Source: Paracyclopina nana (lineage: Eukaryota; Arthropoda; Copepoda; Cyclopoida; Cyclopettidae). Taken from it: a DNA stretch of 64,000 nucleotides. The stretch covers positions 8,432,001 through 8,496,000 of the forward strand of contig JAGUCH010000004.1 in NCBI GenBank assembly GCA_019096065.1, written 5' to 3'. The position numbers and the translations under genes are program-made. Under the pieces are notes generated by a model. It saw only the letters and a program-made list of their open reading frames with translations. It was not told the origin of the DNA and searched no databases. Of the stretch, positions 30,159 through 55,867 are shown piece after piece (within the stretch, counting starts at the first letter, position 1; every line of letters begins with the position of its first letter).

Positions 30159-30384
30159 TGTATAGATCTAACGAGAGTCGTCGATGCACTAAAACATGAA
30201 TAAAGTCGAGATATGCAATGAAATCCAGCACGCCGATGATTTCTATGTAGTAGTCGATTTATTCAACTAACACACGTGAAATCCGGAATCGTACTAACGT
30301 AAACACGAGCATGACGGATCGAATCATAGGTCGAGCTCAATACAAGAGTGTCACAATACAATAGATAAGGCGGGAGCCCAAACA
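30159..30384 (-). repeat. 3' LTR of element C
   Basis: 226 bp, TG...CA ends, containing a minus-strand AATAAA. Nearly identical to 55642-55867. Confidence 0.95.
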
Positions 30385-30467: not shown

Positions 30468-33400
30468 TCAGATACCCTCCTTAATAGGACAAATGAGGAC
30501 ACGGCCAGACTTGTCCAATATTGTAAATCTGATCACTGTAATCTCGACTCGATGAACTGATAAAAATAAACGTCGCACGAATAAAAGAGCACTCTATAAG
30601 GGATCTTTTGGGTCAGATCGTTTATTTTTGACGACCGCCATGCATAAAATCCGATAAAGTACTAAAGTAAACAAAACATAAGGGATCGAAAGTGAGTCCA
30701 GCCAGATAGAGTCACAAAACCTCGCCGGGAGGCAAACAGTCCCCTCTGGGAATCTATCGGTGGACCAAGACTACTCGAACCTGCGCAGGGGCTTGACGCC
30801 GCCGTGCCGATGCATCACTAGAATTCTTCCGTTTCTGTCCATTTGGCGGACAGCCATGACGTGCACGAACGGGGCGACTCTTTCGGCAGCAAAAAGCTGC
30901 ACCAGGTCAGAGTCCTGATGATGGCCACCATTGTGGCCGCGGCCTCCGCACACGTGGCAAACTTCCAGAACTTGTGGGCAGACTTTGGACGAGTGGCCAT
31001 CTCGGCCACAAAAGGGCAAATGACAACTCGGCAGCTCCAGGCAATCAGCCGAGTCATGATCGAAGTCCCCACAGATGACACACGCATGAGAATACTTGGA
31101 GATCTTCCTGTTCTTCTTGGCCGTAGTCGTGATCCGCCCCACAGCCCCATCAATGACAGCGGCCCTGTGAAGGTCAACCAGGGACGCTTCCAGGTCGCTC
31201 TCAAGGAGCTGGATGGCAGAATTAGACAAGTGCCAAAACATCGCTCTTGACAGAGGCCACAGGAGCTCCAGGTCCCTGAACTTCTTGACTATGCTTTCTC
31301 TTGAGTTGAAAAGCCTCGATTCCGCTCTCAACACTTGCAGGGGGCGCGTCGGATCACCAAGCAGGCCCTCGAACTCAACTCTCGGCTGAGAGCCAAATCT
31401 GAGCGGAACGTTCACATACAAGGCCAGCAAGGCCAAGGCGTAGGGGTACATGTTGTCTTCTTCCCCGAGGTTTTCGTATTCCGCCACGATGCTGGCCGCC
31501 TTAAAAAGGCCGGCTAACGGCGCGAATTGATCAATCCTGTCATAGTAGATTGTTGCCTTGGAGTACTCGTCCACGAATCCAGCATAAGGATCTTCTCTGG
31601 CCCACTTCGGGAACCTCACCGAGTGTTGAACTCTGAGCAGCCTCAGCATCTCCTCCTTGCCAACGTTGGCTGATGGATCCAGCAGCTTGATGATGTGGCC
31701 AACATCCACCCACGACCTCACATTGATGCCCATGAGCCTGAATCTCTTGAGGTCGCCGTCAACTCCAAAGCCCAACTTGAAAATCTTGTCCGACTCGAGC
31801 AACTCCACGATCCTCCGCGGCAGCTTCCTGCCAATGAATTTGGGACCCACAAAGGCCACTCGAGTGCCAAAAGCAACTCCATTCGGGGCTCCCATGTGCA
31901 CATAGGATGTCATATTGTTGAATTCGTCAACCGTTGGCGGATATTTCTTCGCATAAGCCACTTTGGTGGAATGATGGAATCCCTCGCAGTCAATTGTCAT
32001 CACTTTGCTCCTGTCAATAGAGCTAAAAAAGTCCCCGCCTTCCAAGAAGTGCTCAATCTCCTCGAAGCTGTTTGCCGTGTATCCATTGTCCTTCTTGGTG
32101 AGGCAGTAAATGTACACTGAGTTCAAATCCTTTGTCTCCAGATCGTAGGGCGTGCCTCGAGCCATCGACGCCAGCCTTCTAGCCTCTTTGACAGTGACAA
32201 CCAAGGCCACTGTCATGGACTTGTCGATCGTCTCTGCCAGCTCGAACTCCCGTCGAATGGCGCACGCGATGTGATTGCATGCTTTCGCTTGCTCACTCTT
32301 CATGTCATAAACTTTGCCTGCAACTAGCTCAGGACACTCAAATTTTAAATCATATTTACGCAAGTACTCCTCGTCGTCATCCATGGGCGTGGCCGATGAC
32401 CTCAACCCTGTCCTCCATGCCAGCTGGGATCACCAATGGTTGTCTTCTGCTCGTCGAGGGCCGTGGCTCCTCAGGGCTTTGTTGCTCATTCTGCGTTGCT
32501 GCTGCTACTTTCTCCACCGCAGCCTCTTCCATCGGCTCATCTTCTTCCACGATCACTCTTCTGGCTGGGTCCATTCCAGGTTCGGCTTTTTCTGGAGCAA
32601 GACAACCAGGGTCTTGCCCCTTCGAAGCTCCACCCAGTGGGCCAAAACTTGAGGTGCTCTCTCTCTCACTATCGATGACTTGGCTGCCTCGGTGGTGGAC
32701 TATTCTCATCGAGCACCGGAAAGGTGGGCCATTGATAGCCTCCAACGTGTCTTTGAGCGCCTTGACAAATTGCTCATTGTGTTCTCTTGTGACTATCGGC
32801 AGCTTCTTGAACACCGACAGCTGCTCCATTTCTTCAATCGACAACGTGGTCCTCGCTTGGTCAATCATGACAATGTCGGCTACATCGCCTTCTCGGTACA
32901 TTTTGTACATCTTGGGTGCAACATGCATTCCCAGGCCCGCTTCCATTGCCTGAAGCACGCCCCTTTCCCAGGTTGCATCCTCCACTGAGCCCGCTATGTA
33001 GTTCCCAAGTGCTCTGGCCGCCATCCAATTCCTGACCATTGTGGCCTTGTCGGGGAGTTCTTCCAGCTCTGGGTCCTTGTTCTCGTTCTGCAGCCTCAAA
33101 ATATCTAGGAATTGATTACCATAAGAAAACATATACGTCTCTAGCAGCGTCATCCCCTTGGCTCGGCAAAGCAGCGCCCTGTACGCTCTCCACAGCCCCA
33201 CCGGAATCTTCGAACTGTACATAGTTCAAATTGAACTGTGATGCAACTGTGGAAATTTTGAAATGTACACAGTTAGGTAAGGGTTGTTATAGAAATGTGA
33301 CAGATCTGTGAAATTGTTCTGTACATAGAAGAAAAATTTTGAATTGTGAACTAACTGTGTACATTTAGAGCACAATATGTCGATTTCTTATTGTTTTAGA

Positions 33401-36400
33401 AATGTGACAAGCAACTGTGACACAACCATGCATATATCAATTTTTTTGTTCTCTGAAACTACTATGGAGCAAAGAAGCTGGAAAATGATGACATAGCTTT
33501 AAAATGTGAAGTAACCATGATTTGATTTGTGACTGATGTATTAAATAACCATGAAATTTATTCATTTTGAATCTATGAAATAACTTTTTTTCAAGTCATG
33601 AAACTACCATGCAAAATACAATAATTTTAGTAGTTTTTCAGTTACTAAAAATGTTCAGAGATGGCGCTGTCATCTTAGCATTACATCTTTGATTGAAACA
33701 TATTACACAAATCCATTCACATGTACTATTAATTGGAAAACTCAATTGAGAGTATCCTATGAAGGCAATTCCTTAACTGTTCTAATGCTATCAATTTATC
33801 TTTTATTACAAAAAACAAGTAAACACAAAAAATGTTCAATAGGCTTATTGGTTGCCAAAATTGATGTAAGCTCATTATTTGATTATTATTCTTAAATTAA
33901 ACAGGCCAAGTTTAATCTGAACTATATCATAACATGTGATGTCATTGACATAGATATTTTGGATTAAGACTGAAGATGAGTTCAGGTACATACATTTGTG
34001 CTGATAGGCCAATATTTATGAGGAATATCCCTTGACTCATTCAAGCTTGAGGTCACAATTCCAAATTTTGAAATGTGAAATGACTGTTGCTCTTAATTCT
34101 TTAAGTTATGCTTGCATGGTTGTTTAACACTTTGGTTACAATTTGTATCACATCTACATCACAGATCGGATCAGACAGAAATTTTTGGCCGGACTGTACC
34201 CTGAAATAACCATGAGAACAGATAAATAACAGTACCAATTTTAATAGTTGTTTAAGAGTACAGTAACATAACGTCTGAACAGTTGTTTACCCTTCTATGT
34301 CATAGAAGGCTTTTGAAATGTAAGCGTCACATGAACCTAATGTAAACAGTAACATCACATTTTTGCTTTCGCGACCCTTCTGTTCTGTGACACAAATGTG
34401 ACTGAACTTAACAATTCCGGTTGGGAGGTCCATTCGCCGAAGTTTTCTTCTCTTCTCCGCGGGTCTCGTGTCGTCGGGCATTTTTTCTCCCCAGTTGTAT
34501 TGGTCGCCGATGATCAGCGCCTCGGGGTCCTTGGCCGCCACGAAAAATGCTTCTCTGCGGCTAACGTCGTTGTTAGTGTACCAGTGGAGTCTTCTAAGGC
34601 CCGTGACTCGCATTATTTCGGCAGCCGTGTCCGTTTGTCGCTCTGAAGTGAACGCTGCCGCTCCATGATCTGGCCTTTGTTCACTAGGCTCCTCTCCCGT
34701 ATTGGCGATAGTTATTCGCAATTCGTCCTTGTTTTCCCGCTCCCTCGAGCAACCAGGGCTCGGGGAGCTGTCGGGAGCCGTGATTCTCTTCCTTTTTCGC
34801 TCACTTCCATCGCGCTCCGCCATTTTCTTCACTCTGTGCGATCCGCAATTTTCACTGTTGTGATTTGGCGGAAAATATTGCGCGCGCGGGTTTTTTCTCA
34901 CTTTACCTGCTGAGTTGTCGCTCAGCTGATCGTCACTACTTGCAGCGCTACCAGACATTTTTTGGCTCGCTCTTCGTCTTCTCATAAAATTCGTTTTGAC
35001 TAGATTTATGTGGTGTGGGTTGGGTGATTGCTTGGTGAGTGTGTGCAACAACATTTTTTTTTTTTTAGTTCAACTGGATGTGTGGGAATCCTCCAACAGG
35101 GATGATGTCCCTTATGCTTCTTTCGAAAATGTTTCTTCCTTGTTGCACTACTACACGTCTCACCAAGCCATCCGTGCTTTTTTTCACCTTTAAAATCTTC
35201 GCTATTCTCCACTTGAATCTTTTCACATTAAGGTCTTCCTCGGCCACCACAACCAAGTCTCCCTCTGTCAATCTTCTTTCGTATTTGGTTCTGAACTTTG
35301 ACCTGTCATGCATGCTTTGCATAAAATAATCGCACCAGCTCTTCTCAAATTTCGCCATTCTTTGTGCTAGTTCGTGCACATTGAAGTCTAGTTCGTGGTC
35401 TGTTGAGAATATGCCTGTGTCTCCCAACCTCCCAACTAGAAGGTGGTTGGGTGTTAAGACTAGTTTTTTGTCATCATTTTGCCGTATTACTGCGATTGGC
35501 CTTGAATTGACCACGTTTTCGGCCTGAGCTACCCACGTTCTGTAGATTTCAAGATCCACTTCTCCTCGATCATTGTGGTCTTGGATGGCTTTCTTTGCCA
35601 GCTTCACAAAAGCTTCTACTTGGCCGTTTGCCTCATGATCTCTTGGTGGTGACATGATCCATTTTCTCACGAACTTTGTTGTCCTGAGTTGCACTGACTC
35701 CCAATCGATCTGTTCAACTTCATGTTCCATGTCTTGAGCCTTGCCATGCTGCTCCTTTTCCAACAATCTCATCGCCTTCTTGAAGCTACCACCATTGTCT
35801 GAGTATGCTTCCTCGATTGGTCCTCTTCGGGCTGCAATTCTTGTTAAGGCCAAGATCAAATCTTCGGTATTCATTCCCATGGTGATTTCCAATGTCACTA
35901 CCTTCGTTACTAGGCAGACGGCGACTAGCACATACACTGGAATTCTTTTTCTTCTGAATTTAACCCACTGTGCTCCTGTATAGTCAATGGCCACCTTCGC
36001 ACATGGTCTCAAATTTTTTAGGTCGACTTTTGTGATGCCTCCCATTAGCTGTCTTGGCATGGTGGCATGATCTCTCCTGCATTTGCTGCATTCTCTTGAC
36101 ACTTTGTAGGCCAATTTTTTGACTGCTGGCCCTGAAACTTCTCGTGATAATCTATGCAGCAAATTGTCATACCTGATGTGGTTCTCTGCTAGGTGTATTC
36201 CCCACACATACAAGATGAACGGCCACGTGTTCGCCAGTAGAATTGGGTTGATCTGCGATCCTTTCAAGTCCTGCTTGTATAGTCTAGTGCACACCCTGAC
36301 TAGGCCATCCCGACTGATCATTAGCGCGTGTTTTCCTTGCATCGCTGTGGGCCATTTTCCAGACTTTTCGAACTGTAGCATCTCTTTTTCCCATTGCAGC

Positions 36401-39400
36401 CACTGCCCAAATATCAGCACTTTTGTTGTAGCTGCGTCCATCAGATCATCCGGAATGATGTAGCCCAGTTTCATCCCTCGGCTCCTGCCGATTATTCTTG
36501 CCAAAGCTCTGATCATCACCGGCCACTTTCCAGCCATCTGCAGACTCATAACATTTTCCATTCGTTTGAAGACTTCGTAGCTTGGGCCTACTGCTTGTTG
36601 ACCTCCATCTTGTATGTCATGAGGTTGGATCATTGCTAACTGGTTGACAACAACAGTGCCAGGACAACCAAGGTCCTCGCACATCAATGTTATCTCACCT
36701 GATCCAAGAAGCTCTTCCTCTATGACTTTAATGTCTGTCAAACTCCATTCATCCTGGTTCTTCTTGAAGAACTCCGGGCCTTCCCAATAGTTTTTGTGGT
36801 CCTTGAGTTGATTGCCAGTGCAGCCTCTCGTTGGAAGGTCCGCTGAGTTCTCAGCTGTGGCTATGTGATTCCAATGCTCCATCAGTGTTGTGTCCGCGAT
36901 TTCAATCACTCTGTTTCTCACGAACACGCACCTTTCCACTCCTGGCTTCCTTATCCAGTAGATTACTGGCTTGTTGTCTACCCAGTACCACACATTTTCT
37001 CTCTTGATTCCAAAGAGCCTGATGAGCCTGTTCGACAGTCTTGAGCTGAGCAGGGCTCCTGCTAATTCGACCTCTGGTATGGATCTTTGCCTGACTCCTT
37101 GTATTCTTGCTTTTGTGGTTAGCCACCTTGGTTGTGGCTCTCCACCTCTCTGGCTCAGATATGCCACTGTCGCAAATGCAAGATCCGACCCGTCGCTGCA
37201 CATGTGAAGAATTGTATTCTCGTCTATTGAGCTCGCTGCTTTTCTTGGGTAGCTGACTTCTGTCATTTGATTGAACTCACTCTGCCACTGCTTCCACAGT
37301 TTCACCGCCTCCTTTGCGTTCTTATCATCCACTTTTGACAAATCGTCGTCCCACGCAATTTTCTTGTCCTTGTCCGCCTTGTGAGCCAGTTGGAGCGCTT
37401 TTCTGGCCTTCAATAAGCACGGAGCTAAGGCTCCTAATGGGTCGAATACCGCTGGGATCTGACTTGCCATGATCCTCTTTGTCACTACACCCTGGTTGTG
37501 TTTTGACAGCTGGTACCCAATACGATCTGTCACTGGGTCCCATTTAAGGCCAAGCGTAGAGTGTATTCTTTCTTCCATGTTCTCTTCCACCACCATCGAT
37601 TTTCCCCTTCTTTCCACTGGCACGTTTTCCAGCACATCTTTGTCATTTGAAACAAATTTTCTCAGCTCCATTCCAATTTCGCTCATGAGGGGTATTAACT
37701 CCTCGATGACCTTTTTTGCGGTCTCTTTGGCCTTGAAGGCCACGATCACATCGTCCATGTAGATGTTGACTGTCTCCTGGAGCAGTCTGGAGCCTTTGTT
37801 TTTAATGTGCGACTTCACCACGAAGTTTGCCACTGACGGGGCTGCTCTGAGTCCAAAGGGCCACCTGCAGAACTGATACTGCTGCCCTTGGATTAACACT
37901 CTGACGTACTTTCTATCTTTCTCCGGAAGCGCGATCATTAAGTACATTTTTTCAATGTCAGCCACAACGGCCACATCTCCTACTCGGAATTGAAGCATGG
38001 TATCGAAGATGTCTTCCAGATAATTTGGGCCGGTGTACATCTGCTCATTTATCAACGTCCCGTTGAACTTCTGCTTGGCATTATACACGAACCTGTATTT
38101 TGTTGTCTCGCTTGTGTGCCTAGCCACGCAGAACACTGGGAGAAAATATCCTTTCCCTAGTTCGTGTTTCGGCACAGGTTCTATTATGCCAAGTTTCAGG
38201 TACTCTTGAAATGTTGAGCCAATTGCTTCCATAACTCCTGGATCAGCTTCGTGTTTTTTGTCTAGACTTCTCTGGATCGCTGCACACTGCAAGAAGTTGT
38301 CCGGCAAATCTGGGATCTCTTTGATGAACGGTATGGCCACCTCTACGTGACCTGATGGCAGTAATCTCATGGTTGATTTCATTTTTACCAAGGCTATCTC
38401 TTCTGCCAGGTTGAGCCTTTGGACTGGTTCTTCCTTCCGGTCAATTCCAATTGACTCCAGGCCGTATTGTCTGTCGAGCATATACCTGAACTCTGATTCT
38501 GTCATTGATGACTGGTTGAACAGCTTCCAGTCGTCCACCAAGCAAGCCACGTCGTTATCGCCCACTCCTGGGTAGTTAAGTATTGACCACCCCAGGGGCG
38601 TTTTTCTTGCTAGGGGTCCATCTTTCACCACAATGTCTTTTTCACTGCTCATTAGGACGGTGTTGTTGAATCCAACTAGAAGCCCCACTCCACCTTCTTC
38701 TGGCACTGGGAACTCAATTTCCTTCAGCTCGCCATGATTCTTCTTGACTGTATTCGGATCGACAGGTTTGATCGATACTGGTAGCTCGAAGGTGTTGAAT
38801 TTTAATTCATATACTTCTCCGCTTCTGTCTTTCGCTCTGATGTATATCTTTCCTTCCTGCGATGGCTGCGTTATGGACTTGTCTCCCACGACTTGAACTG
38901 TCAGCTGCTTTCTTCTGCCCTTGAATCCCAGCTGCTTTGCTAAGCTGGGCTTCAGTAATGTTGCACTTGACCCTGCATCAATGAGCGCGTTAGTTGTCAC
39001 CGATTTTTCAAACGAGAGGTCGCTTGCTATTTCCACTGGCACAGTGAGCCACGATCGCGTTGCTTGGGCTGCTAGTAAGATCACATCTTTGGCTTGTTCT
39101 CCCTCGTCAGCACAACCAAGGTCCTGACTTAGGAGTGTCGTTTCTGACAGTTTTGTCATAAGCTTCGTCATTGATGCTAGCAGCTCCTTCACGTCTTCTT
39201 TGTCTCCCACGCTCTTTTTGGCTTCCTCTGGTTTCGGTTTCTGCCTGTGGATCTTTGTGTGGTGGCTTGCTGATCCACAAACATCGCAGGTTAATTGCCT
39301 TTTGCAATCACTGAGTTTGTGTTTGCCCTGCAAGCACCGGGGACAAATCTTTGCGTCCTCAATGACTTAGATGATGTCTTGCAGCTTGAACAGATTCCAC

Positions 39401-42400
39401 TCTGGGCACTCGCTACATCTATGCCCTGGCTTCTTGCACAAAAGGCAGATCGTTTTCCCATTGACGAAGTTGACGCATTCTTCATCTTGATCTTGATAGC
39501 CAAAATCATACCAATCGCCTCCCTGATCTTCGCAATGAGCAACCACCTCATTCTCGCAACCTTGCCATCGTTGTTCTTCATCCCACCAATAGTCCTGATC
39601 ATCGGGGTCATCATATCTCGAGGGGTAAGCTGCTCCCCACGCGAAGTACGATTGCTCTCTTCTGCCTCCATAGAAGGGCCTCCTGGCTCGGCCTCTGAAG
39701 CCTCCTCCCCTGTAGCCCCTGGTTGGCTGTGGGGGTTCGGCTGCTTGGATTTGTGGAACATATCCGTAGGCTTGGCCTGTTCCTCGATGATAATTTCTGT
39801 CGTGCATCTTGTTGATGTCTTCTACCACCGTGCATACTTTTCTGCTTCTCTGGATTTCCCTTATTCTTGTCCTGGACCACGTGATAAAAAGTCTCAAGGA
39901 GTTTCGAGATTGCATTTTTTGTTCTTTGAACCTCTCGTAATCTCTCCTGGCTCCTACCTCGAATTGGATGTTGCTCAGGATTGACTGCTCTCCATCTAAG
40001 GCGTCCTTTCCTGCTCGCCCATTGCAGTCAATAATTTCCTCGACTAGAGCTAGCGTAGCTTCCAATGTTGCTAGACTCTTCATGCTTATCGGCACCATTT
40101 TGATCAACTGAGCTGAGAGGTCATGCACCATTTCGTCAGCTTCTCCTGGATGTCCTAAATATGTGCCATCCAGATTTTCCAGTGCGCTGACTAGGCCTTC
40201 AAAGTCCAGCGTACACCTTCTCACTGCGAACTTTGCTCCTCCTGTGCACAAGTACTTGAGTTTGGAGATCTTTTCGAACCAGCTCAAGTTCTTTTTCATG
40301 ATGATTGCCGCATGGACATATTCTTTGAAGTCCTTGTATGCTCCTGTGTTCGCTCCATCGAAGAACATCGGCTTAACATCCTCCCTTGAGTTTGAGTCCT
40401 TTGGCAGGCTTGGGTCATAGAATCTGTGGAGGTTTTTCCTCTGCATGATGTCTGCCCAACAAACATCTGTGGTTTTTCTTCTTCTGCACCAGTGTAGCGC
40501 CCTCTCTCTTCAATGTTGTCCTCGCGGCCTCTGGTTGGCCGTGGGGCGGCCTCCTGGTCGTTCTCTTCTCTTTGTGCTGGCATGCTTCGCGCAATGTTTT
40601 CAGCTTCTTTGTTTCCAATCACGATGCACTGCTTGTTGATTGGAAAGTCAGCGTTGTCTGGCATCTTGAGCAGTTCTTCTCCCACTTCCACTCTTCTCCT
40701 GTTGACCTCTCTCATCATGCTTGCCTGCCGCACTGCTTCCATCGAACCGGCCCTCATTTTTCTGAGTTCCCTATCCGCGCTTTTCAATTGTGAGACTAGC
40801 GAAAAGAACTCACCATTCAGCGTGATGCATTTTTCCACCTCTGACTCTTCCGCATCCTCGGACTCCACCGGTTGCGCTTGGGTGTCGTGGTTTTGCTGCT
40901 TGGGAGCGTTTTCAGAGGCAGCGACAACTAAAGTCTCTGCCTCTGTCGATACGCCCGCGACCATGATGTTCCTTGCTTTCGTGCTGGCTTTCATCACTAG
41001 CACTACCAGCCTCTTGTTCATGGCTCTCATCTCCGTTGCGAACTCTTCCCTGTCACTCTGACCCACCAGCGACTCCAGCACCACCGCGTCACTCTTAAGT
41101 GTTTCTATGAGGTTACTGAGGCCATTTCGCACACACTCCACTGCTCCTGCTCTTGTTGCAGCCGTCAAACTGTCTTCGAGCTTTGCCATGTCACTTTCTA
41201 GGCCGGCTCTGGTTCCTGCCCAAGCCTCCTTCCACGGAGCCATGTTATTCGGTTCGACAGTCATCATGTGCACGTTGTTTGTCGTGTCACCAAGCAGCGT
41301 CGAGTCACTATAGCGGAGATCCCATTCGGTCCCCGCAGTGTCTAACTGGGTGTTTGTCCCCTCAATTGTGTCTGGGTGTCCTGACAAACACACTGACTTA
41401 TCACTTGAGACTCTCTTTTTGAACTCGGCAATCCGTCTGTTGGCCTCCTCTGACCTCGCAGCCTCGACCTCATCTGCTCGACTCGATACTGTTTTTGCGG
41501 TCCTGGCTTCGTGAAGTTCGTGTTCATACTCTCCCGATGTCAACCTCACATTCCTTATCGGATTGTGTCTGAGGCCGTACTTCTTGGTAGTGTCCTTTGA
41601 CATCCGATTCACTGTCCCCTCGTTTGCGTTTCGTGGGACAAAGCTTTGTCCCCCGTTCGCAAACTCCTTTAGCTCGTCAGCCAGCAACAGCTGACTGCAA
41701 TGGCCGCCGGCTCCCTCGGTAAGCTTGATTCTTGATCTCTCACGGTGTGGAACTGATAACGTTGGTCGCCATGTAAATCTGATCACTGTAATCTCGACTC
41801 GATGAACTGATAAAAATAAACGCCGCACGAATAAAAGAGCACTCTATAAGGGATCTTTTGGGTCAGATCGTTTATTTTTGACGACCGCCATGCATAAAAT
41901 CCGATAAAGTACTAAAGTAAACAAAACATAAGGGATCGAAAGTGAGTCCAGCCAGATAGAGTCACAAAACCTCGCCGGGAGGCAAACAAATATCCTAGCA
42001 TAGGCATCATGTTGTAGGAAAGCCAGCTGAGTAGTCAACAGCGCTTGCACTAAGTCAAAACGTCCATGGTGCTCTGTAGCATTACCATCGCCGCTACACA
42101 AAATGTTGAGGCGCTTGAGCCTCTTCTTGCAGTTGGCATTTAAGTGTCCAAAGTTGCCACACAAGAGACAAGAGTGCAGGTACAATCTAAGCTCTTTTGG
42201 CTCCACCACACCAATGATGCCCTGCACGCAATCAATAAGTGCCAAGGCCACATGAGGCAAATCCCACTCACACCTTTGAGCTCCAAATAAAAATTCAAGG
42301 TCTTTGACAGTCTCAGCCGATGCTGTAGGAAGGAGGGCAATTGTCATAGGAGTGGTCAGTCCAACTTGATGCCAACACTGCACCACTTGCTCAAGGTTGC

Positions 42401-45400
42401 TGTATGCCCCAAACTCTTCTCTAAGCAGTCTCGCAGCTTCTCCCTGACACCCGAGGTCTGGGAGAAGTCCTGTGATTGTGCTCATCTTCTGACCTTGAAT
42501 GGTCTCAGCCTGGCATTGGTTGAACTGTTTCCAACCACTGACAAAACTAGAGGCTTCAATACCACCCGTTCTTGGGTGAAACAGCATTGCCCAACCAAGG
42601 GGAGTCCTTCTTGCCAAGGGGCCTCCCACCACATATATGTCCTTTTCACTTATCATGAGTTGCATGTTGTCAAACCCAATAAGAAGTCCCACACCACCAT
42701 CCACTGGCTTTGGGAATTCAATTTGGTTCAGCTCAGCACATTTTGCTTTGATTTCATTAGGGTCAACTGGTTGGATTGCAATGGGCAAATTAAAGGTGCT
42801 GAACTCGAGTTGAAATACCGGTTCTTTTGTGCCCCTTGCTCTGATGTACATGGTGCCCTTGAAGGAAGGCTGCTCCACTACTTGATTGTTGCCCACAACC
42901 TGGACTGCCCTACTCCTCCTTTTGCCTTTGGCACCCAAGACTTTGGCTAGGTCAGGTTGTAACAGTGTAACATTTGATCCAGTGTCAAACAATGCATTTG
43001 TTTCCATTGCTTTGGCAAAATCCATTTTAGTGGAAATCTCCACTGGAACTGTCATCCATGAGCTTGAGGCATCACTCTTCTCTTTTGTAAGGGCCACAAC
43101 ATCACCCTCATCACTTGTTGTGTACTCGCTTGAATCATCATCATCGAATCCAGTTGCCTCCTTCAGTTTTTTGTATTTTATGCGATACTTGTCACTTTTC
43201 TTCTCTGGGCTATCTTCCTCTTCTTTGACCTCCATTTCATCAAAAGATTTGGTTAAATTTTTGAGCAACATATCAGTCCTCTTGGTCCTCAGGTGGTCCC
43301 TGATTCGCACCCTGGCCCAGGTGATGAATAGCCTGAGCGAGTTTCTTGACTGGAGTTTCTTCTCCTTAAAGTCCCTGTAGTCCCTGGTAGTGATGCTATC
43401 CATTTGGATGTTGGACAAGATTGAGGCTTCACCGTACGTTGGATCTTTGCCAGCGCGTCCATTGCAGTCAATTATCTCCTCAACGATGACCAAGGCCGCC
43501 TCCACAGAGTTCAAGTCTTTTACCGAGATTGGTGGCCTCTCTCTCATCTTGATGAGCAAATCATGGATCACTTCCTCAGCTTCATCTCTATGGGCCAGAT
43601 AGTCACCATCCAGTTTTTGGAGGGCCTCAATGAATCCATCCTTCGACAGGCTGCATCGTGATATCTTAATCTTTACTGCTCCAGTGCACAAGTTTTTGAG
43701 TTTAATGCACTTCTCAAACCAGTTCATGTTTCTCTTCATGACAATGCCAGCATGCACATATTCCTTGAAGTCCCTGTAGGTGACTTCGCCTGTGCCATTG
43801 AAGTACATAGGCTTGACGTCGTCCCTAATAAAATCCCTGGGCACTTTCGGGTCATAGAATTGGGTTAGATTTCTGCCTTCATATAGGTCATTCCAGTCGA
43901 TATCAGCCTGAGTCCGTCTTCTTACTTGATCGATGATGGTGTCGTGGGCCAAATATGATTGCTCCTCCTGGATCTTCTTTTCATATAGCTCACTTGACAG
44001 CGTCACCATAGTCATGCCCAAATTAAAGTCCTTCCTGCTGAAGTCATGGTCGTTTTTTCCTTGATTCGGCGTTGTTCCACCCTTGCTTTGTGGTCGATTC
44101 CTATGGTGGTCCGGATCTGAGAATGCCATGAGGTTGTCGATCTCTTTGCTAGTGAGGACAACACTTTGCATGTTGAACTTTTTGCGATCATCCTCACCCA
44201 TGCACTGAACAATATTCTCCAGTTCCTTCCTTCTCTTGTTGGCATTTTCCATCAAGGTCACCTGATCTTTGTAAGCTACTGTACCCACCATCAGAGTTCT
44301 TCTCAACTTATCAGCTTTTTTGAGTTGGCACACTACCACATCCAATTCTTCGAAGACTTTCTCTGCTGAGTTGTCTGGAGTGTCATCATCCAATTGGAGC
44401 CCTTCCTCATGTTGAGAGTCTGCCTTAGCAACCACAGTCTCCGCAGCGGCACCTGAAGCTGCTGCTGGAGTCGGTGTGGAGGGGTTGTCCAGTTCACTGA
44501 GTCTTTTGTCTTTGACAACCCTTGAGGCTCTGATTACATAAGTCACCAACTGGTAGTGGATTAGGGAGACCTGATAGTTAAAGTCTTCGCGATCGGCCTC
44601 CATGACAAGGCCTCTACATGTCTCCACATCCTCAGTGACCTCGCTCTTAAGCCCTATGATTTGGGCTTTGATCCTCCCAGCCAAGTCTGACGACGTGGCT
44701 GCATCCAATCTCTCGCCCAAGACTTTCACGTGACTGTCCATGGTGTCTTTGATATTTTTTAGGACATCCATCCACATGTCTTTAGAGTGGGCTGGTGCAG
44801 GCTGTGGAAAGCTCAGAAGCTTGTCCGTCTATAAAATCGATGAATAAAGTCACGAACTAAAAGAGCCGATGCGATTTCTAAGTACTAGTCGACTTTATTC
44901 AACTATCACTCGTGAAATCTCAAATCGTACTGACGTAAACATAAACAAAACAGATCGAATAAATGAGTCGAGCTCGATAAGATAGTATCACAAATCCATC
45001 TCTGGGCGGGAGCCAACACAGTCTCCCCTGGGATCTATCATGAGCGCGATCATCATCTTCGACGAATCACTAAAATGTTGCTTCAAAATCACTAGAATGC
45101 TTCTGGTAAAAGTCCATAAAATCTTCTTAAGCATAGTAGATGCGGAACTTGCCCTTGTGGTCCGACACCAGCAGCTTGGCATCACGGTCCAGACACTTGA
45201 CCGCCATGCAATGCAGAAACTGACTGAGTCTCACGGCGGCATAGATCTGCACTGAGTCATACTTCTGATGATGGGCGGCACTGTGCCCACGCCCATCACA
45301 CAGCTCACATATGTCCAGAGCCAACGCACAGACTCTGGAGGCGTGGCCAGCTTCATTGCAGAATGGCAGCTTGCACTCGAGGTCCAATTCCAAGCAGTCA

Positions 45401-48400
45401 GCCACCACATGATCAAATGACCCGCACAAGGTGCATGCATGCGGATACGTGGACAAATTTGCTGAGCCCGCTTTAACTCCTAGACCTTGCTCCCATGCTG
45501 GCTTGACGAGGTGTGGCAAGTGAAGCTCCTCAACATGAGCTCCCGCAAGGGCTGCCACCGCGTTTAAGTCATCCTCATCGAGAGACACAAAAGCCGTCTT
45601 ATTCAAAGGGAAAATAAACTCAAACTCACGCACATTGATCAGTGACTGGCGCAGGGAGTTCCAAATCCTGGATTCTTCTCGCAGTAGTGTCACCACGCCT
45701 TCCCGACAACCGAGGTCGGGAAGGAGATCGGCCAACTTGCTGCTATTGCCCGCTTTTGCTGGGCATCCTCTGAGCAGTGCCAGCACATGGATCGCATACT
45801 GATGCACATTATCATCATCCTTGAGGCCCTCCTTCTGCCCCAACATGGCCGCGACCTTCAGCAGGGCGGCAAACGGTACAAATTGATCGGCCCTGTCATA
45901 GTACATGATTGTCAAGCTGTACTCATCGACAAAGCCTCCATAATGATCATCCTTCCAATTCGGCTTCTTGATCTCGTGCTGCACGCCGAGGAGTCTCAGC
46001 GCTTGCCATTTGCCGATGTCACTATTCGGCTCGATCAGTCTGTTGAAGTGGCTCGCGTCTACCCAGTTCTGCAGGTGGACTCCCATGTATCGCAACCTTT
46101 TCAGGTCTCCATCGATGCCATACCCAATTTTGCAGATCTTTGGCGATTCCAGGAGGTTTTTGATTTCCTCTGGAATTTCTCTGCCGAGAAAGCGTGAGCC
46201 CACAAATGCGACTCTAATGCCAAACGCTACGCCGCCAGGGGACCCCATGTGCAGGTACGCAGTCATATTTTGCCACTGGCCATGGTTAGCACCATATAAG
46301 TCAGCGTATTTGTCTCTGACAAATGTGCTAAATCCTTCACAATCCACCGTCATGAACCCATGGCTCTCAATATCATCAAAGAAATCATTTTTTCTCAATC
46401 GGTATAATGACTCACCCCAATAGTTGCTGGTGCTCAAGTTCGGTGTTCTTGTGAGCCCATAAACTAGGACTGACTGCACTTTTGGTCCAGACAAGTCATA
46501 CCTGCTCTTGGGTCCCATCTTCGACCTGGCCAACGCTTGCGCCACCGTGATCTTGACTGGCACTCTCATTTTTGGGGACGAACACTCCGCCAGGCTGAAC
46601 TCGGCTTTGGCCACGCAGATTGCCGTTCCGCACTTGCCACGCCGTCCTGATTCCACTCCCATGAGCTCGCCGCAAACCAATTCTGCACAAGCTTTGTTTG
46701 GCTTACCATAATTCTTCAAGTAATCTTCATCGGGCGCCAGCGTTCGTCCTCCGGGCTTGAGTTGACTTTTCATCACAGGAGCCGAGTCTGCCAGGTCCTC
46801 CATGAGCTCATCTTCATAGCCTCCCGGTATGCCTTGGCTTGGTGGTTGAAAATCACTCTCTTCAACCTGAGTGCCCTCCGATTTCAGCTCCACAGTCACT
46901 GGCTCATCATTGACGTCTTCGATGTCTTCTTGGTGTTCTTCTTGGATCTCTTCCTCCCAAATTTCTACGTGGGGCTGCTCCTGCTCATCTTCTTCCTCCT
47001 CTTCGCGCTGCACTGGAGGCCGACAACCGAGGTCGGCTTCCTGTACAGCTAACATAGCTGGACCTCGTTTTCTGAGCAGCGACGTGTAGATCATTGCTCT
47101 GGTCTCCATGGCCGAGTGCACTGCCTCATTAGCGGCTTCCAACACCCTCAAATCGTCAGTGAGAGCGTTCGCTGGCAGATCCGCATTTTCAGCCAACATC
47201 CTCAACTCATCAGCCGAAAATCTCGTGCTAACTCTATCAGCGATGACCACATTGTCTACCTGATGATCTTCGTAGAGCCTTATAATTTGCGGTATCTGCA
47301 GTCCCTGGGTCTCGATCGATTGAAGGACAGATTTTTCAAAGGAGGCATCATCCACCGACTTGTCAATATATTTTCCCAAAGACTCGGCGACTAGCCAGCA
47401 CCTCGCTCGCGCTATGAATCCCAGTGGGTTGTCCAATGAGTCATCGTCGCTGTCTCTGTAAAACTTGAGAACATCCAGGAAAACGTGCCCATAAGAGAAC
47501 ATAAGGGCTTCCAATAATGAAAGGCCCCTCGCCCTCAGGACGAATGATCTATAACATCGATGGATATCTACCCGTCTGGCTTTCCTTCGCTTGTCTGCAT
47601 CTCTCTTGTCCTCCTCCGCTCGCTTGCCCCAATTCCATTGATCGCCAACAATCAAGCATCCAGGGTCCTTGAAATACATGAGGAACGCGTTGACGAGCCC
47701 CACTTCAGTTCTATTGTAGAAGTGGAGATTGCGTACTCCTGTAGCTTCCATGATGGCTTCAGCGTCATCTTTTTGCCGTTCAGAGACCGTGGCTTCCGGC
47801 CCTCTTCTTGGGACGACTCCTGGCTCCGCCGCTCGCTCCCCCGTGTTCTCATAATAAATTGGGGTGCGCTTCGATGGCCCAGGACGACAACCGAGGTCGT
47901 CCTGGTCCTTATCCGAGGAATCTTTGCTTCGGCTTCGCTTCGACATTTTCACAATTCGATTTGACGATATTTTGATCGCTTGCAATATTCCAGTTGAGTT
48001 TTGTTTTCGCGCGAAAACTGAGTGACTATGACGTAGTTGCGGGGTTACCAGATAAATTTTGAAATTGACTAGATTCGTGGTGTTTTTCGTGAACAATTGG
48101 TTATGTGATCTTGACTTACTGTTTTAGTTGTCCAAGCGGATGAACGGCATTCTTGTCACCGGGATGAGTTGACGAATACCTCTTTCCACGGTGCCATGTT
48201 TGTGCTTCACCAGAACTTTCCTGACTATGCCATCATTGCTTTTGATGGCTTTGATCACTCTTCCTATTGTCCACTCATGTCTTTTTATCTTTAGGTCCTC
48301 TTCAGCCACCACAACTGCGTCGCCCTCTTTAACGTTTTCTGTCACTGATTGAAATTTTCTTCGTCCGTGCATGTCATTCAAATAAAATTCTGTCCATCTT

Positions 48401-51400
48401 CTTCTAAATTGGCTGAGCTTGCTTCCAATCAGTCTAATGACATTTCCAAGCTCATCGTCGTTACTAAAAACGCCTGTGTCACCCACCCTTCCAACGAGAA
48501 GGTGGTTAGGTGTCAACAGCATTCGGCTGTCATCGTCCTGCTCCACCACAGCCACCGGCCTCGAGTTCACTACATTCTCCGCCGCTGCGACCCAAGTTCT
48601 ATACAACTCTAAGTCGACCTCACCTTGATCTAGATGGTCCCTGATTGCATTTTTGGCCAATTTGACGAATGCTTCAACTTCACCATTTGCTTCGTGGTCT
48701 CTGGGTGCATTCATTTTCCACGACTTCACATACTGCGCCGTTTTGATTTTCACTAACTCCCAGTCAATCTGAACAACCTCTTCTTCTTCTGGATCCCTCC
48801 TTGTGGCTTGCTTCTTCTCCTTTTTCGAAACCAGCCTGCAGAGTTTCTTGAAGCTACCTCCATTGTCTGAGTAGCATTCTTCGATAGGGCCTCTCCTTGA
48901 CGCGATCCTTGACAGGGCCATAACAACGGCTTCTGTGCTTAAGCCTGTTGTTATCTCTAAGGTCACCACTTTTGTTTGAAGGCAAACTGCAACAAGGACA
49001 TATATAGGTACTCTCTTTCTATAAAACTTTACCCATTGAGCCCCTGTGAAGTCTATGGCTATCTTTGAGCACGGTCTTATGTTCTTCAAGTTCAGGTTTG
49101 GTTTGGCTCCCATAAGTTGTCTTGCCATCGGTGCGTGTAGCTTTTTGCACTGTGTGCATGCCCTCGATATTTCTTTTGTCATATTCTTCAGCTGTGGTCC
49201 AGACAGAAACTTTGTTGCTTGAAAGTACAGGCTGTCATTTCTCACGTGACCCTCCGCTGCGTGCAGCGCCCACAGGTAAAGCCTGAATGGCCAAGTGTCT
49301 GCCACTAGCACTGGATAAATACTCGAGCCTGGCTCGCCTTCTTGGTTGTACATTCTGGTGTGCACTCTAATGAGCCCATCAGCACACATCATTGGTTGCA
49401 CCGACTTCTTTATCATCTTCTCTGGCCATTTTCCTGTCTTCTCATATGCAAGCAGGCTTTCTTCATATTTCAGCCACTGTCCAACCACCAACACGTGCTT
49501 GACTGCTTCTTGCAAGTAGTCTTCTTCCAGCATTTCTCCCTGTGATTGTCCATTGCTTCTCGCGATCAATCTAGCTATCGCTCTTATTAGAATTGACCAC
49601 TTGGATACTCTGCTCGCTGATAAGAGTCCTTTCCACATTTTGAATATCTTGTGGCTGCCAGCTACTGCCTCTTCGTCTCCTGCCTCGACTTGATGTGGCC
49701 TCAACAGTCCTGTTTGCGACGTCGACACCTTGCCACGACAACCGAGGTCGTGGCACATCAGTGTGATGTCGCCTCTGCCTGCTAGCTCTTCTTCAGTCAC
49801 TTTCAGCGCAGTCAACTTCCATTCTTCCAACTTGGTCATGAAGAACTGTGGGCCCCCCCAGTAGGTTGCGTGATCTCTAAGCTGAGAACCTGTGCACCCC
49901 CGGGTGGGTACGTCTCCAGGGTTAATCTCAGTGGCTATGTGGTTCCAATGCTTGACCACCGTCGTATCCGATATTTCGATTGCTCTGTTTCGCACGTACA
50001 CAGCTCTGTCCACTCCTGCTTTTCTGATCCAACATATCACCGACGTGTTATCAACCCAGTACCATGATGTTGTTTTCTTCATGCCCAGCAAGGACATTAG
50101 TCTGTTTGATAACCTAGCGCTGAGTAGCGCCCCTGCCAGCTCCACCTCCGGTATAGTTCTCTGCTTCACTCCTTGAATCCTTGCTTTTGTGGTCAGCCAC
50201 CGCGGCTCAAAAGCTCCGCTCTTCGATGCCACAAATGCCACCGTCGCAAAAGCTAGATCTGAGCCATCGCTGCAAAAATGTAGCACTGTGTCTCCTGTGA
50301 TTTCTGGAGCTACCATTCTTGGATACGACACTAAGCACATCTGCTCATATTCTTCCTGCCACTGTTTCCACAGTTTGACCGCTTCCCTCGTGAGTTCGTT
50401 GTCACACTTTTCAATATCGTCGTCCCATGCGATCTTTTTGATCCTGTCAGCTTTATGGGCCAACTGCAATGCTCTCCTGGCCTTGAGCAAGCATGGCGTC
50501 AGTGCTCCCAACGGATCGTACACTGCTGCAATCTGGCTCGCCATGATTCTTTTCGTGATCACCTTCTGCTCCACTCTTGACAACTTGTAGCCAATTCTGT
50601 CTGTCTTGGGCTCCCATTTCAGGCCTAACGTTGAGTGAACAGGTATTTCATCTGTCTCTCCAACAACCATGGCCTTTCCCAGTCGTTCTTTTGGTACATC
50701 TGCTAATGCTTCCGGTTTGTTGGAGACAAACTTCCGGAGCTCCATGCCGCAGCTACTCATTAGGGGAATAAGCTCATTTACAACGCTCTTGGCCTCTTCC
50801 ACTGTTTTGAAGGCCACGATGACGTCATCCATGTATATTCTGACCTTCTCACGCAACCTCTCGGATCCGTGCTCCTTGATATGATGCTTGACCACAAAGT
50901 TCGCAACACTCGGCGCCGCTCTCAATCCGAATGGCCACCTGCAAAATTGCATCTGCTGGCCGTTGACTATGATCCTCACGTACTTTCGGTCCTTCTCTGG
51001 AAGCGCGATCATGAGATACATTTTTTCAATGTCACTTACCACCCCAACTTCCCCCACTCTGAACTGTATCATGGTGTCGAAAATGTCATCGAGGTAGTTC
51101 GGCCCAGTGTACATCTCTTCGTTAATCGAGGTTCCTCCAAACTTCTGTTTTGCGTTGTAGACAAATCTGAACTTGGTCGTCTCGCTGCCTTCCCTGGCTA
51201 CGCAGAAATACGGCATGAAATTTCCAGTCCCAACATCCGAGGCCGGGACTGGCTCAATAATGCCCAGTCTGACGTATTCTGCCATTGTTTCCTCGACTGC
51301 TTTCGCTACCCTTGGGTCCTTCGCGTGCTTCTTGTCCAACGTGCGCTGAATCGCTGCGCATTGCTTGAAGTTGTCCATCAAGTCTGGATCCTCCTTGATC

Positions 51401-54400
51401 ATTGGGATTCCCACTTCATATAATCCATTTGGCAAGCGTTTGAGTGTTTTCTTCATCTTGCTCAAGGCTGCCTCTTCTGCTACTGTCAATCTCTTCACAG
51501 GTTGCTCGGCTCGATCAATGCCGATTGATTCCAACCCATACTGCCTGTCCATCAAATACCTCATCTCCGTGTCTGCTGTCGCTGCTTTGTTTAGCTCTTT
51601 TAAGTCGTCCACAAAGCACGTCACTTCAGCCCCTCCTGATTTTGGGTGGCTCAGCAGTGCCCATCCCAGAGGTGTTCTTCTCGCTAGTGGCCCACTTGGC
51701 ACCAAAATGTCTCTCTCGCTGGCCATCAGCTCCATATTGTTGAAACCAATAAGTAGCCCAATTCCTCCCTCTGCTGGCTTCGGAAATGGCACGTCGTGCA
51801 ACAGCTCATGCTCCTGCTTGACAGCATTCGCATCAACGGGCGTTATCGAGACTGGAATGTTGAAAGTGTTAAATCTAATTTCAAAGACTTTTTCCTTCTC
51901 ACCCAGAGGCCTCACATACAATTTTCCCTTGATTGACGGCTGTTGTACTACCTTATTTTCTCCTACGACCTGCACTGACAGTTGCTTTCTTCGTCCTTTT
52001 GCTCCCAGCTTTTTTGCTAAGTCTGGTTGCAGGAGCGTGGCACTTGAGCCAATATCAATCAATGCGTTCGTTTCCAGCGCGGTTTCGAATCCTCTTGTCA
52101 TTGCTATCTCCACCGGGACTGTCATCCATGATCTTGCTTTCTTTCCCACAAGACCCACCACTTCTACAGTTTCTTCATCGCTGCTCCCATCAAGACAACC
52201 GAGGTCTTGATTGAGCAATGTTGCTTCTTCGTCTACAATTTTGACCACATTCATCAATGCGTCTCTGAGCTGCTTCTTAAAGTCTCCTTTGCCCTTGGCT
52301 GGCCTGCTGTCCTTCTTCCTCACTCCATGGAGTTTAGTATGGTGATCTGGGCTCTGGCAGACTTCGCACACCATGGTCTTCTTGGAACAGTTCTTGATCG
52401 AGTGTCTTCCTCTCAGACATTTTTCGCACAGCTCCGCCTTTTTTACTAACTCCGCTATGTCTGCCAAATTATAGTCCCCCCAGCTCTCACATTGGAAGCC
52501 TCTGTGTCCGCTCTTGTTGCAAACAAAGCACGGCTCCTTGGGACCTGCCAGTGCTGTCACTTCTTCTTCTGACGTCGAGCTCTCGCTGTCTCCATCATCA
52601 CTGGCGTAGTTGACGTACTCTCTTCTTTTGTTAAAGGGCTTCTTCTTAAATTGTCTTCTCTTTGGTTGCTCAACATCATCCTCCTTGTCCGAGACATCGT
52701 ACACCTTTGTAATGTTCTTGATGAACTGGTCCGCCTTCCTGTTCTTGATGTGGTCTTTTATTCTCAACTTAGCCCAAGTTATGAAAAGTCTCAGCGAGTT
52801 TCTCGACTGCAACTTCTGCTCCTTGAATGCCTCGTAGTTCCTCTCAGTGTAGTTGTCCATGATGATGTTCGACAAGATTGATGCTTGCCCATCTAGTGGA
52901 TCTTTTCCTGCTCTGCCATTGCAGTCTATGATTTCTTCCACAATGGCTAGCGCTGCTTCGACTGTATTCAGGTCTTTGAGCGAGATAACTGCTCTATTTC
53001 TCAACTTGATGAGCAATGCCGTAATCATTTCCTCTGCTGCTCCCTTGTGCTCTTGGAAGTCGGCTTCGAGTGTTTCTAGGGCTTCAATGAATCCTTCCAT
53101 GGACAAGTCGCATTTCGCGATCTTGTTCCTCGCAATTCCTGTGCACAATTGTTTCAGCTTGGACATTTTCTCGAACCAATTCATGTTCGCTTTCATTACT
53201 ATGCCCGCATGCACAAACTCTTTGAAGTCTCTATATGAGACGTTTCCTGATCCGTTGAAGTATATTGGCTTCACATCATCTCTAATCATGTCTCTTGGCA
53301 ATGTTCTGTCGTAGAATTTATGCAGGTTTCGGCGTTCGAACAGTTCGCTCCAGCAGATGTCTCTCTTGACTCTTCTCATGACTCTGTCAATGATTGAGTC
53401 TTGAGCTAGATAGGCTTCTTCTTCTCTGATCTTGACTTCGTACTTCTCGTCCGAGATCATGACCGTTGGCATTTCCAAGTTCAGATCTTTGCGGTCCGCC
53501 ACACTTTCTTGGAATGGCTGTCTCTCATCGACTGCGTCGTTTTTTGGCAGAAACTGGGTCGGCCTGAATGGTTTTCTCTCAGCAGGTGATGTGCAGAACA
53601 TCATCAGATTGTCTAATTCTCTGGCATTCAGTACCAGCTGTTGCATGTTAATGATGCTTTTGATTCCATCGCTGACTGCTTTGAGCTTCGACTCAAGCTC
53701 TCTCCTTCTGTCGTTGAACTTCTGCATTGTGATCACCTGGTTCGTGTGATCTAAGCTGCCCGCGTCCATGCTTCTCCTGACCTTGTCCGCATCCTTCAGC
53801 TGAGTCGCTATCAATGCGTGCTCTTTGACCCATTCTATAGCGTCGCTTTCATCCGCTGGCGCTGCTTCTTCTTCCTTTTCTTCTTCTCCAGCAGCAACCG
53901 CATCCGAGGCCGTCGCTGCCGGCTTTTCTTCCGTGAACAACGCGAGTCTTTTTTCTCTGATGGCCTTTGTTGCTTGCCTCACGTAGCCTGCTATCTGCAA
54001 GTGCATGCCGTCGACCTCTGCTTCGAACTCTGTTCTTTCATGTTCTCTCACTGCCCTCGCTGTGGACTTGATGTCGACTGCAATGTCATCCGATATTCTA
54101 GCAAGCTCTCTCTTGTATTGATCCGCCTTGTCCGGAGAGGTTGTGTCTCTGATCTTGCTTGCCAGTGTCTTTATTATTTCATTGGCATCATCCATGATGG
54201 CTCCCAGCAACAGCTTCCACGGTGGGATTTGCTGCCCTGGTGGCTGCTGTTGTCCTTGGGCACCCATTTGCTGCTGTGCAGCTTGATTTGATGTGCCCTG
54301 GTGGCCTGGACCTTCCACGCCTGACATATCCATTAGTTGATCTATTGTGTCGTAGCCTGGTAACTCTGATAAGTCGTTGGCGTCTGCTCTGGCTATGTTC

Positions 54401-55641: not shown

Positions 55642-55867
55642 TGTATAGATCTAACGAGAGTCGTCGATGCACTAAAACATGAATAAAGTCGAGATATGCA
55701 ATGAAATCCAGCACGCCGATGATTTCTATGTAGTAGTCGATTTATTCAACTAACACACGTGAAATCCGGAATCGTACTAACGTAAACACGAGCATGACGG
55801 ATCGAATCATAGGTCGAGCTCAATATAAGAGTGTCACAATACAATAGATAAGGCGGGAGCCCAAACA
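55642..55867 (-). repeat. 5' LTR of element C
   Basis: 226 bp, adjoining the primer binding site at 55641 and the TCAGT duplication at 55868. Confidence 0.95.

Follow-up and report, generated by a model that had tools for sequence, protein, structure and literature searches.

Closest described systems

Palindromes located inside coding DNA are known from the Rickettsia palindromic elements, and to our knowledge it is largely an open question how a long terminal repeat (LTR) retrotransposon discriminates between its own RNA and the RNA of its many relatives present in the same cell. Here, we describe a stretch of 64,000 nucleotides (nt) from the copepod Paracyclopina nana (contig JAGUCH010000004.1, positions 8,432,001 to 8,496,000 of the forward strand; referred to as the window and numbered from its first base), in which the BEL/Pao retrotransposons A and B and a further element, C, carry a family of hairpins with a shared 7-nt loop pattern inside their coding regions. 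Related loci elsewhere in the same genome are designated by L numbers.

A close comparison is provided by the dispersed packaging signals of single-stranded RNA viruses and of hepatitis B virus, the latter with the loop motif RGAG (PMC7612645, PMC7793301, PMC6281560, PMC4751978; these and the other hairpin, loop and ORF3 papers of this section are cited from excerpts). As in these viruses, several stem-loops with a common loop motif and variable stems are distributed across the coding genome. The BEL hairpins differ in residing in an LTR retrotransposon, in their stem covariation, in a largely lineage-specific loop word and in antisense copies in some elements. Regarding strand, A and its relative L115 carry hairpins in sense orientation only, B on both strands. 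The palindrome in gag of feline immunodeficiency virus likewise represents structured RNA in coding sequence and has been linked to packaging, but it lies in the 5' region, whereas the BEL sites are many and extend along gag, pol and a second open reading frame (ORF2) (PMC2987497).

With respect to the loop, the Smaug recognition element, which is read by a SAM domain, has the consensus CNGG or CNGGN (PMC9893680). There, the loop of a stem-loop is the protein's target, as may also apply to the BEL hairpins. The BEL core, in contrast, is YNYRG, and CTCGGTT, CTTGGTT and CGCGGTT do not contain CNGG, while the CCTGGTT type does. CNNG di-loops with a Watson-Crick pair between positions 1 and 4 are a known RNA turn (PMC5311481). 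The BEL motif shares this pairing of the first and fourth loop bases with the di-loop/Zanti-turn tetraloops, but is embedded in a 7-nt loop and followed by G-N-W, and the likeness concerns sequence and base pairing. Finally, LTR elements of bdelloid rotifers possess an ORF3 with a DEDDy exonuclease (PMC5408684), which resembles ORF2 as an exonuclease-like extra frame at the env position; here, by contrast, the elements are BEL/Pao and the protein has CCHC motifs. The bdelloid paper contains neither "hairpin" nor "palindrom". The main text of a BEL/Pao survey (PMC3118150) mentions no hairpin, palindrom, stem-loop or secondary structure, and hairpins of this kind in BEL elements are not described in the literature titles and abstract openings listed, a scope outside which most subscription papers fall.

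A hairpin family in coding sequence

A preliminary description of the window had listed ten in-frame hairpins, all of which were found at their reported positions on the minus strand, i. e. in element sense. As it had proposed, a covariance model was built (31 columns, 12 base pairs (bp), 7-nt loop) from eleven window sites, namely these ten and a hairpin of element B at 40914. Run on the window plus six fetched copies, 112 kb in total, it confirmed the family with 46 matches at an expectation value (E) below 0.1 and added sites both in the window and in related BEL/Pao copies. The window thus contains nine sites beyond the original ten, five in sense and four weaker ones in antisense orientation, the latter all in B. 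At E<0.1, the model contributed three sense sites (53890, 51223 and 32187) and one antisense site (37115), and at E 0.29-0.95 the sense site 44439 and the antisense sites 39706, 40518 and 37479; up to E=5, it found no match in the window outside 31164-53920. The site at 40914 emerged from a plain scan of the 64 kb for 7-nt loops closed by stems of 8 bp or more with no more than one mismatch, which listed 18 hairpins, nine of them from this family (eight of the original ten plus 40914); 34743 and 39106 are missing from that list. The complete set is as follows.

45696..45726, minus: hairpin A1 in ORF2, loop CTCGGTT, frame 0 (LLPDLGC); counterparts in L069, L074, L115 and C
47013..47043, minus: hairpin A2 in ORF2, loop CTCGGTT; a CTCGGGT hairpin lies at a similar distance in L130 of the G lineage
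47877..47907, minus: hairpin A3 in the N-terminal part of ORF2, loop CTCGGTT
49728..49758, minus: hairpin A4 between the peptidase-A17 and integrase parts, loop CTCGGTT
51223..51253, minus: new hairpin in the N-terminal part of the reverse transcriptase (RT), loop CTCGGAT, other reading frame (PVPASDVGTG)
52185..52215, minus: hairpin A5 between the gag zinc knuckles and the protease, loop CTCGGTT
53890..53920, minus: new gag hairpin of A, loop CTCGGAT, other frame; hairpins are present in gag of L115, L131, C and B too
32187..32217, minus: new B hairpin, loop CTTGGTT, other frame (MTVALVVTV)
32592..32622, minus: B hairpin, loop CCTGGTT
34739..34769, minus: B hairpin, loop CCTGGTT (SPGC)
36654..36684, minus: B hairpin homologous to A4, loop CTTGGTT
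37115..37145, plus: antisense B hairpin, loop CTTGGTT
37479..37509, plus: antisense B hairpin, loop CCTGGTT, weak; stem partly common to the A-type L069, which lacks the loop
39102..39132, minus: B hairpin homologous to A5, loop CTTGGTT
39706..39736, plus: antisense B hairpin in gag, loop CCTGGTT, weak score
40518..40548, plus: antisense B hairpin in gag, loop TCTGGTT, weak score; seen only in the B copy of the window
40914..40944, minus: B gag hairpin, loop TTTAGTT, 11 of 12 bp
42437..42467, minus: C hairpin, loop CTCGGGT, counterpart of A1
44439..44469, minus: C gag hairpin, loop TTCAGGT, weak score; same loop in gag of L131 (G lineage)

The seven sites of A are located in gag, in the gap between gag zinc knuckles and protease (A5), in the N-terminal RT, in the gap between peptidase-A17 and DUF5641 (A4) and, three times, in ORF2. 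Two generalisations of the preliminary description need to be narrowed. Closure by GAC/GTC has exceptions in 34743, which is closed by AGC/GCT, and in 39106 with a mismatch in the closing triplet, and the single reading phase applies to the ten original sites, but not to 53890, 51223, 44439, 40914 and 32187, which lie in another frame, nor to the four antisense sites of B.

Stems beyond chance

Shuffling of triplets yielded on average 1.0 hairpins with a 7-nt loop in the A region and 0.5 in the B and C region, versus six and five observed, respectively. Stems were also scored beside every loop occurrence, requiring at least 7 of 10 Watson-Crick pairs, which 0.3-0.5% of background positions reach. 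In the A-type copies (window A, L069 and L074), CTCGG[TA]T occurs 17 times in sense orientation, 15 times with a flanking stem, and twice in antisense orientation, both times without one. For the L115 loop, this holds for four of five sense sites, the fifth having six pairs plus two G.T, and no loop match was found on the L115 antisense strand. The B loop has a stem at 21 of 30 sense and 13 of 29 antisense occurrences. Permuted loop motifs, with the true sites left out, gave 5/669 (sense) and 11/1403 (antisense) for A, 1/310 for L115, and 18/1532 (sense) and 23/5217 (antisense) for B.

The stem sequences are unrelated from site to site, and the earlier claim that structure rather than sequence is kept was borne out by covariation at three homologous site sets. 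The scores were 0.485 versus 0.195 in shuffled alignments for A5 and its B counterpart (B4; 12 sequences), 0.307 versus 0.126 for A4 and its B counterpart (B3; 11 sequences) and 0.348 versus 0.193 for the new RT site (8 sequences), in each case with 0 of 500 shuffles as high, although homologous copies are not independent and P values are hence optimistic. Further copies lacking compensatory changes, which would have pointed to chance, did not turn up. Pooled over 55 of 63 listed sites, the score was 0.719 versus 0.217, with eight sites dropped (near-duplicates, weaker copies and L086) and rows picked partly because they pair. Mismatches carry strand information as well: on the strand with the pyrimidine-rich loop, G.T outnumbers A.C at sense sites (24 vs 10, P 0.02) and antisense sites (14 vs 2, P 0.004), homologous copies being counted separately. 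This excess favours a folded single strand, which in B would include the minus strand. Taken together, the hairpins are very likely under selection.

A loop word that differs between lineages

The loop follows the consensus Y-N-Y-R-G-N-W, of which the core Y-N-Y-R-G is general across sites. Its positions 1 and 4 covary and can pair in all 55 modelled rows (45 C-G, 8 U-A and 2 U-G), and G5 is invariant among these; in a wider table, the 1-4 pair is absent from 3 of 65 rows, all from distant lineages (L091-L093). Within this frame, elements use their own words. All seven sites of A carry CTCGG[T/A]T. In L115, CGCGG[T/A]T is the word at the RT site and at four sites encoding DRGC, five in all and in two frames, and the A3-like place has CGCGGTC. 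At the RT site, L115 carries PVPAADAGNGNF in place of PVPASDVGTGNF (AADAG for ASDVG); the base that distinguishes the two loops therefore sits in two frames and has different effects on the amino acids. In B, loop position 3 is T at every tabulated site, sense or antisense. The word is thus mostly, though not wholly, common to the sites of one element. That most sites of an element share it and that it differs between lineages at several sites together suggests that the loop is likely read by a trans-acting factor. A prediction fixed before fetching further stretches held for two of three from the G lineage (CTCGGGT in the ORF2 stretch and, on a modest stem, TTCAGGT in the gag stretch), against a background of about 0.5 chance matches over five stretches (18 scan matches in 180,660 strand-bases).

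Encoded peptides

Sense sites in phase 0 encode DLGC, or SPGC or DPGC in B. The earlier statement that the hairpins lie in frame and encode DLGC thus covers part of the set, but the same loop also occurs in another frame (ASDVG at 51223, ALVV at 32187, TLVV at 40914) and in B in antisense orientation, where the sense-frame peptides are NQG, PQPRW or PTRG. Hence, the hairpins are no by-product of DLGC. Codon choice is also unusual, since all five DLGC sites of A use CTC GGT TGT, although CTC, GGT and TGT account for only 18% of Leu, 12% of Gly and 33% of Cys codons in A (chance about 0.007 per site as the product of these usages).

The junction peptide was compared at A4 in 27 and at A5 in 29 elements and proved lineage-specific, with most lineages that have both sites showing a similar peptide at the two (DLGC, DRGC, DCSC or GLG..GP); in some G elements, A4 encodes DLGC but A5 DHGC. 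These sequences appear to constitute a lineage-specific repeated junction peptide, perhaps a protease site. The GLG..GP version occurs without a hairpin in a further BEL element, D, which suggests that the repeated peptide predates the hairpin. Element D is situated at the left window edge (about 900-2700, minus strand) with GLGQKCP-type and GLGENGP-type peptides at the DLGC positions of A; hairpins of the A, B or C type were not found in this part.

Palindromes in a second BEL clade

Eleven further BEL loci (L046, L049-L053, L055, L058, L062, L063 and L066), here called the S clade, carry near-perfect palindromes of the form CC-N4-CNG-N4'-GG and stand apart from the A/B group in a peptidase-A17 tree of 39 rows (support 95/93). 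All 11 loci have one of these palindromes roughly 0.1 kb ahead of the A17 match, with 8-10 of its 10 central pairs formed. Further palindromes, each present in only some of the loci, lie about 1.1-1.2 kb ahead of the A17 start and 0.8 and 1.6 kb beyond it; the one at +0.8 kb resembles A4 in its approximate distance. Paired nonsynonymous changes keep the symmetry, as in SAAE to PAAG (L058, L062) and E to D with C to G (L051), and covariation amounts to 0.603 versus 0.177 in shuffled data for 30 of 43 palindromes, with 13 dropped and rows picked partly because they pair. The palindrome centre is mostly A or T, and often C or G in L062 and L066.

Candidate readers

The two open frames of A are the following.

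48124..54693, minus: gag-pol open frame of A, 2189 amino acids
45130..48123, minus: ORF2 of A, 998 amino acids, with a DEDD-exonuclease-like domain at about residues 533-808 and CCHC motifs

Three CCHC/CCHH-like motifs each are present in Gag of A, B and L115, and two each in ORF2 of A and B. ORF2 matches the fold of RNase D, RRP6, WRN, EXD1 and the stem-loop binder Egalitarian, and has both the fold and the acidic motifs of DEDDy 3'-5' exonucleases. The frame at the env position of A hence seems to encode a 3'-5' exonuclease of the DEDD kind together with CCHC motifs; homologues are found in L069-L073 and L115. An identity as Env was rejected (highest 19-residue hydropathy 1.42; 0 of 7988 scored database candidates matched).

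What the hairpins may do

The sequences themselves give good support to the hairpins, their covariation, the loop pattern, its independence of frame and strand, and the substitution origin of the RT-site hairpin. As the best single guess, for which we see about an even chance, the hairpin array could serve packaging or self-recognition through an element-encoded factor, of which we infer the reader, the stage and the benefit. An array of single-strand hairpins would be kept by selection in BEL/Pao coding DNA, with a generic stem and with identity carried by the 7-nt loop (a CNYG or UNYA di-loop, then GNW). The putative single-strand-binding reader would be encoded by the element, either as the Gag zinc knuckles or as the ORF2 protein with its DEDD-exonuclease-like fold and CCHC motifs. 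With such a reader, an element could recognise, among the many co-resident BEL families, the RNA that belongs to it, and in the B type its minus strand as well, for packaging or particle assembly. A more far-reaching version, which we put forward tentatively and consider possible rather than probable, is a heritable barcode: the hairpins would run through different frames and both strands, the loop word would coevolve by lineage with a reader (Gag or the exonuclease-fold ORF2), RNA and first-strand complementary DNA (cDNA) would be privately recognised, and the S clade would have evolved an independent word, the CNG palindromes. If true, such a barcode would provide private self-recognition among hundreds of coexisting relatives. 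With their different loop words, their open frames and their candidate readers, the lineages form a natural series in which self-recognition can be tested directly. They also exemplify strong selection on the nucleic acid across several reading frames, and they outline how a sequence that encodes a junction might have become, step by step, a tag for RNA recognition.

Several observations weigh against packaging or self-recognition. The B-type elements have five antisense site groups, four of which score E 0.019-0.49 in the window, and these sites do not fit simple packaging of sense RNA. Packaging signals usually reside in the 5' leader, where the covariance model found no hairpin in A. Words are mixed in places: the gag loop of L115 (TGCAGGT) differs from its other sites, that of B at 40914 (TTTAGTT) is not B's usual word, and G-lineage loops read C[T/A]CGGGT at A4/A5 but T[T/A/G]CAGA[A/G] in RT. 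The above prediction did not hold for the A1-like stretch of the G lineage or for either stretch of the F lineage, whose stems reach just 4-7 bp. What the proposal mainly leaves unexplained are these failures, the antisense sites of B and the mixture of words in gag and in RT of the G lineage. To these can be added the 9 of 30 sense loop matches in B without a stem, the lack of a G.T excess in the S clade (11 vs 10) and the optimistic P values.

Among the alternatives, it is extremely unlikely that a protease-cleavage or linker peptide (DLGC) alone accounts for the data, with stems arising from chance and codon bias. The similar peptides at A5 and A4 in most lineages compared, and GLG..GP without a hairpin, would fit this idea. 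The same loop and stem in other frames and in antisense, the codons at DLGC far from element usage, the covariation at three site sets and the passage of the S clade from SAAE to PAAG through paired changes in both arms refute it as a full account, although the peptide might account for the early use of the junctions as sites. Just as improbable is a mobile mini-palindrome inserted in frame, as raised in the preliminary description with reference to the Rickettsia palindromic elements on account of repeated hairpins with a common core in coding DNA. At the RT site, A, L069, L074, L115, L126 and L116-L118 have the hairpin, and B and the remaining alignable homologues lack it; in an alignment of 19 rows to A, none of the 17 that cover the site (all except L119 and L128) has a gap within 12 residues. 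Because hairpin-bearing and hairpin-free homologues align gap-free, this hairpin arose by point substitution and not by a clean insertion. Close to A4, 5 of 21 rows have small gaps; the sequence around A5 is variable and hence tells little about insertion. Unlike in the Rickettsia elements, moreover, the stem sequence is not common to the sites, and the 11-mer ACCTYGGTTGT occurs at 115 genome places, of which the first 30 were looked at and none reaches 7 bp. Template switching could perfect stems by quasi-palindrome correction, but would not predict a shared loop at unrelated sites.

In HIV-1 (human immunodeficiency virus 1) RNA, structure at domain junctions has reportedly been proposed to slow ribosomes for folding, and BEL junction hairpins might likewise allow polyprotein domains to fold. 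A4 and A5 lie between domains, S-clade palindromes lie near the peptidase-A17 edges, and the 18 tested 31-mers fold at -9 to -23 kcal/mol. We nevertheless regard such translation control as improbable, as it leaves the loop pattern, the joint lineage differences, the antisense sites and the sites within RT and gag unexplained, and linkers may merely tolerate coding constraint. Somewhat less unlikely, but still doubtful, is a role at the DNA level, with hairpins in single-stranded cDNA or cruciforms being bound or cut during reverse transcription or integration. Both orientations in B and the symmetric S-clade palindromes without strand bias would agree with this, while the sense-only pattern in A and L115 speaks against it (antisense: A 0/2 with stem, L115 without loop match), and the one-strand G.T excess argues against double-stranded recognition. 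A host RNA-binding protein could read the hairpins for localisation, export or stability, as host proteins such as Smaug/SAMD4 (PMC9893680) and Egalitarian-BicD (PMC13186709) recognise stem-loops according to excerpts of these papers, yet distinct words in coexisting lineages are easier to reconcile with element-encoded readers, which renders a host factor quite improbable. Kissing loops are very unlikely: sense loops of B (CTTGGTT) might pair with antisense-type loops (AACCAAG) for dimerisation or compaction, given that the two complementary loop types coexist in B elements and that kissing loops have been reported for Ty1 RNA dimerisation (PMC5454406, from an excerpt), but complementary hairpin loops were not found in A or L115, and the G.T/A.C asymmetry suggests that the opposite strand folds at the antisense sites.

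Elements and genomic setting

Both A and B are minus-strand retrotransposons of the BEL/Pao type, with aspartic protease, RT, Pao peptidase-A17, integrase-side DUF5641 and LTRs. The integrase core rve is matched only in B, below the cut-off, and a protein search with the integrase part returned 15 distant matches with at most 33% identity, the named ones from insects. The sole domain match of C is a protease, likewise below the cut-off. Three LTR pairs were assigned.

44803..45020 and 54906..55123: LTRs of element A, 100% identical
30522..30738 and 41772..41988: LTRs of element B, 100% identical
30159..30384 and 55642..55867: putative LTRs of the outer element C, 100% identical

As all three pairs are identical over the compared stretches of 217-226 nt, the insertions of A, B and C look recent. 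The arrangement at 30159-55867 is nested, with the outer-element LTRs enclosing A and B, and from these pairs C would be the outer element interrupted by both. The 92-Mb genome contains 243 peptidase-A17 candidates, of which 150 were scored and all 150 match. Many of the matches sit in open frames of 2000-3100 amino acids.

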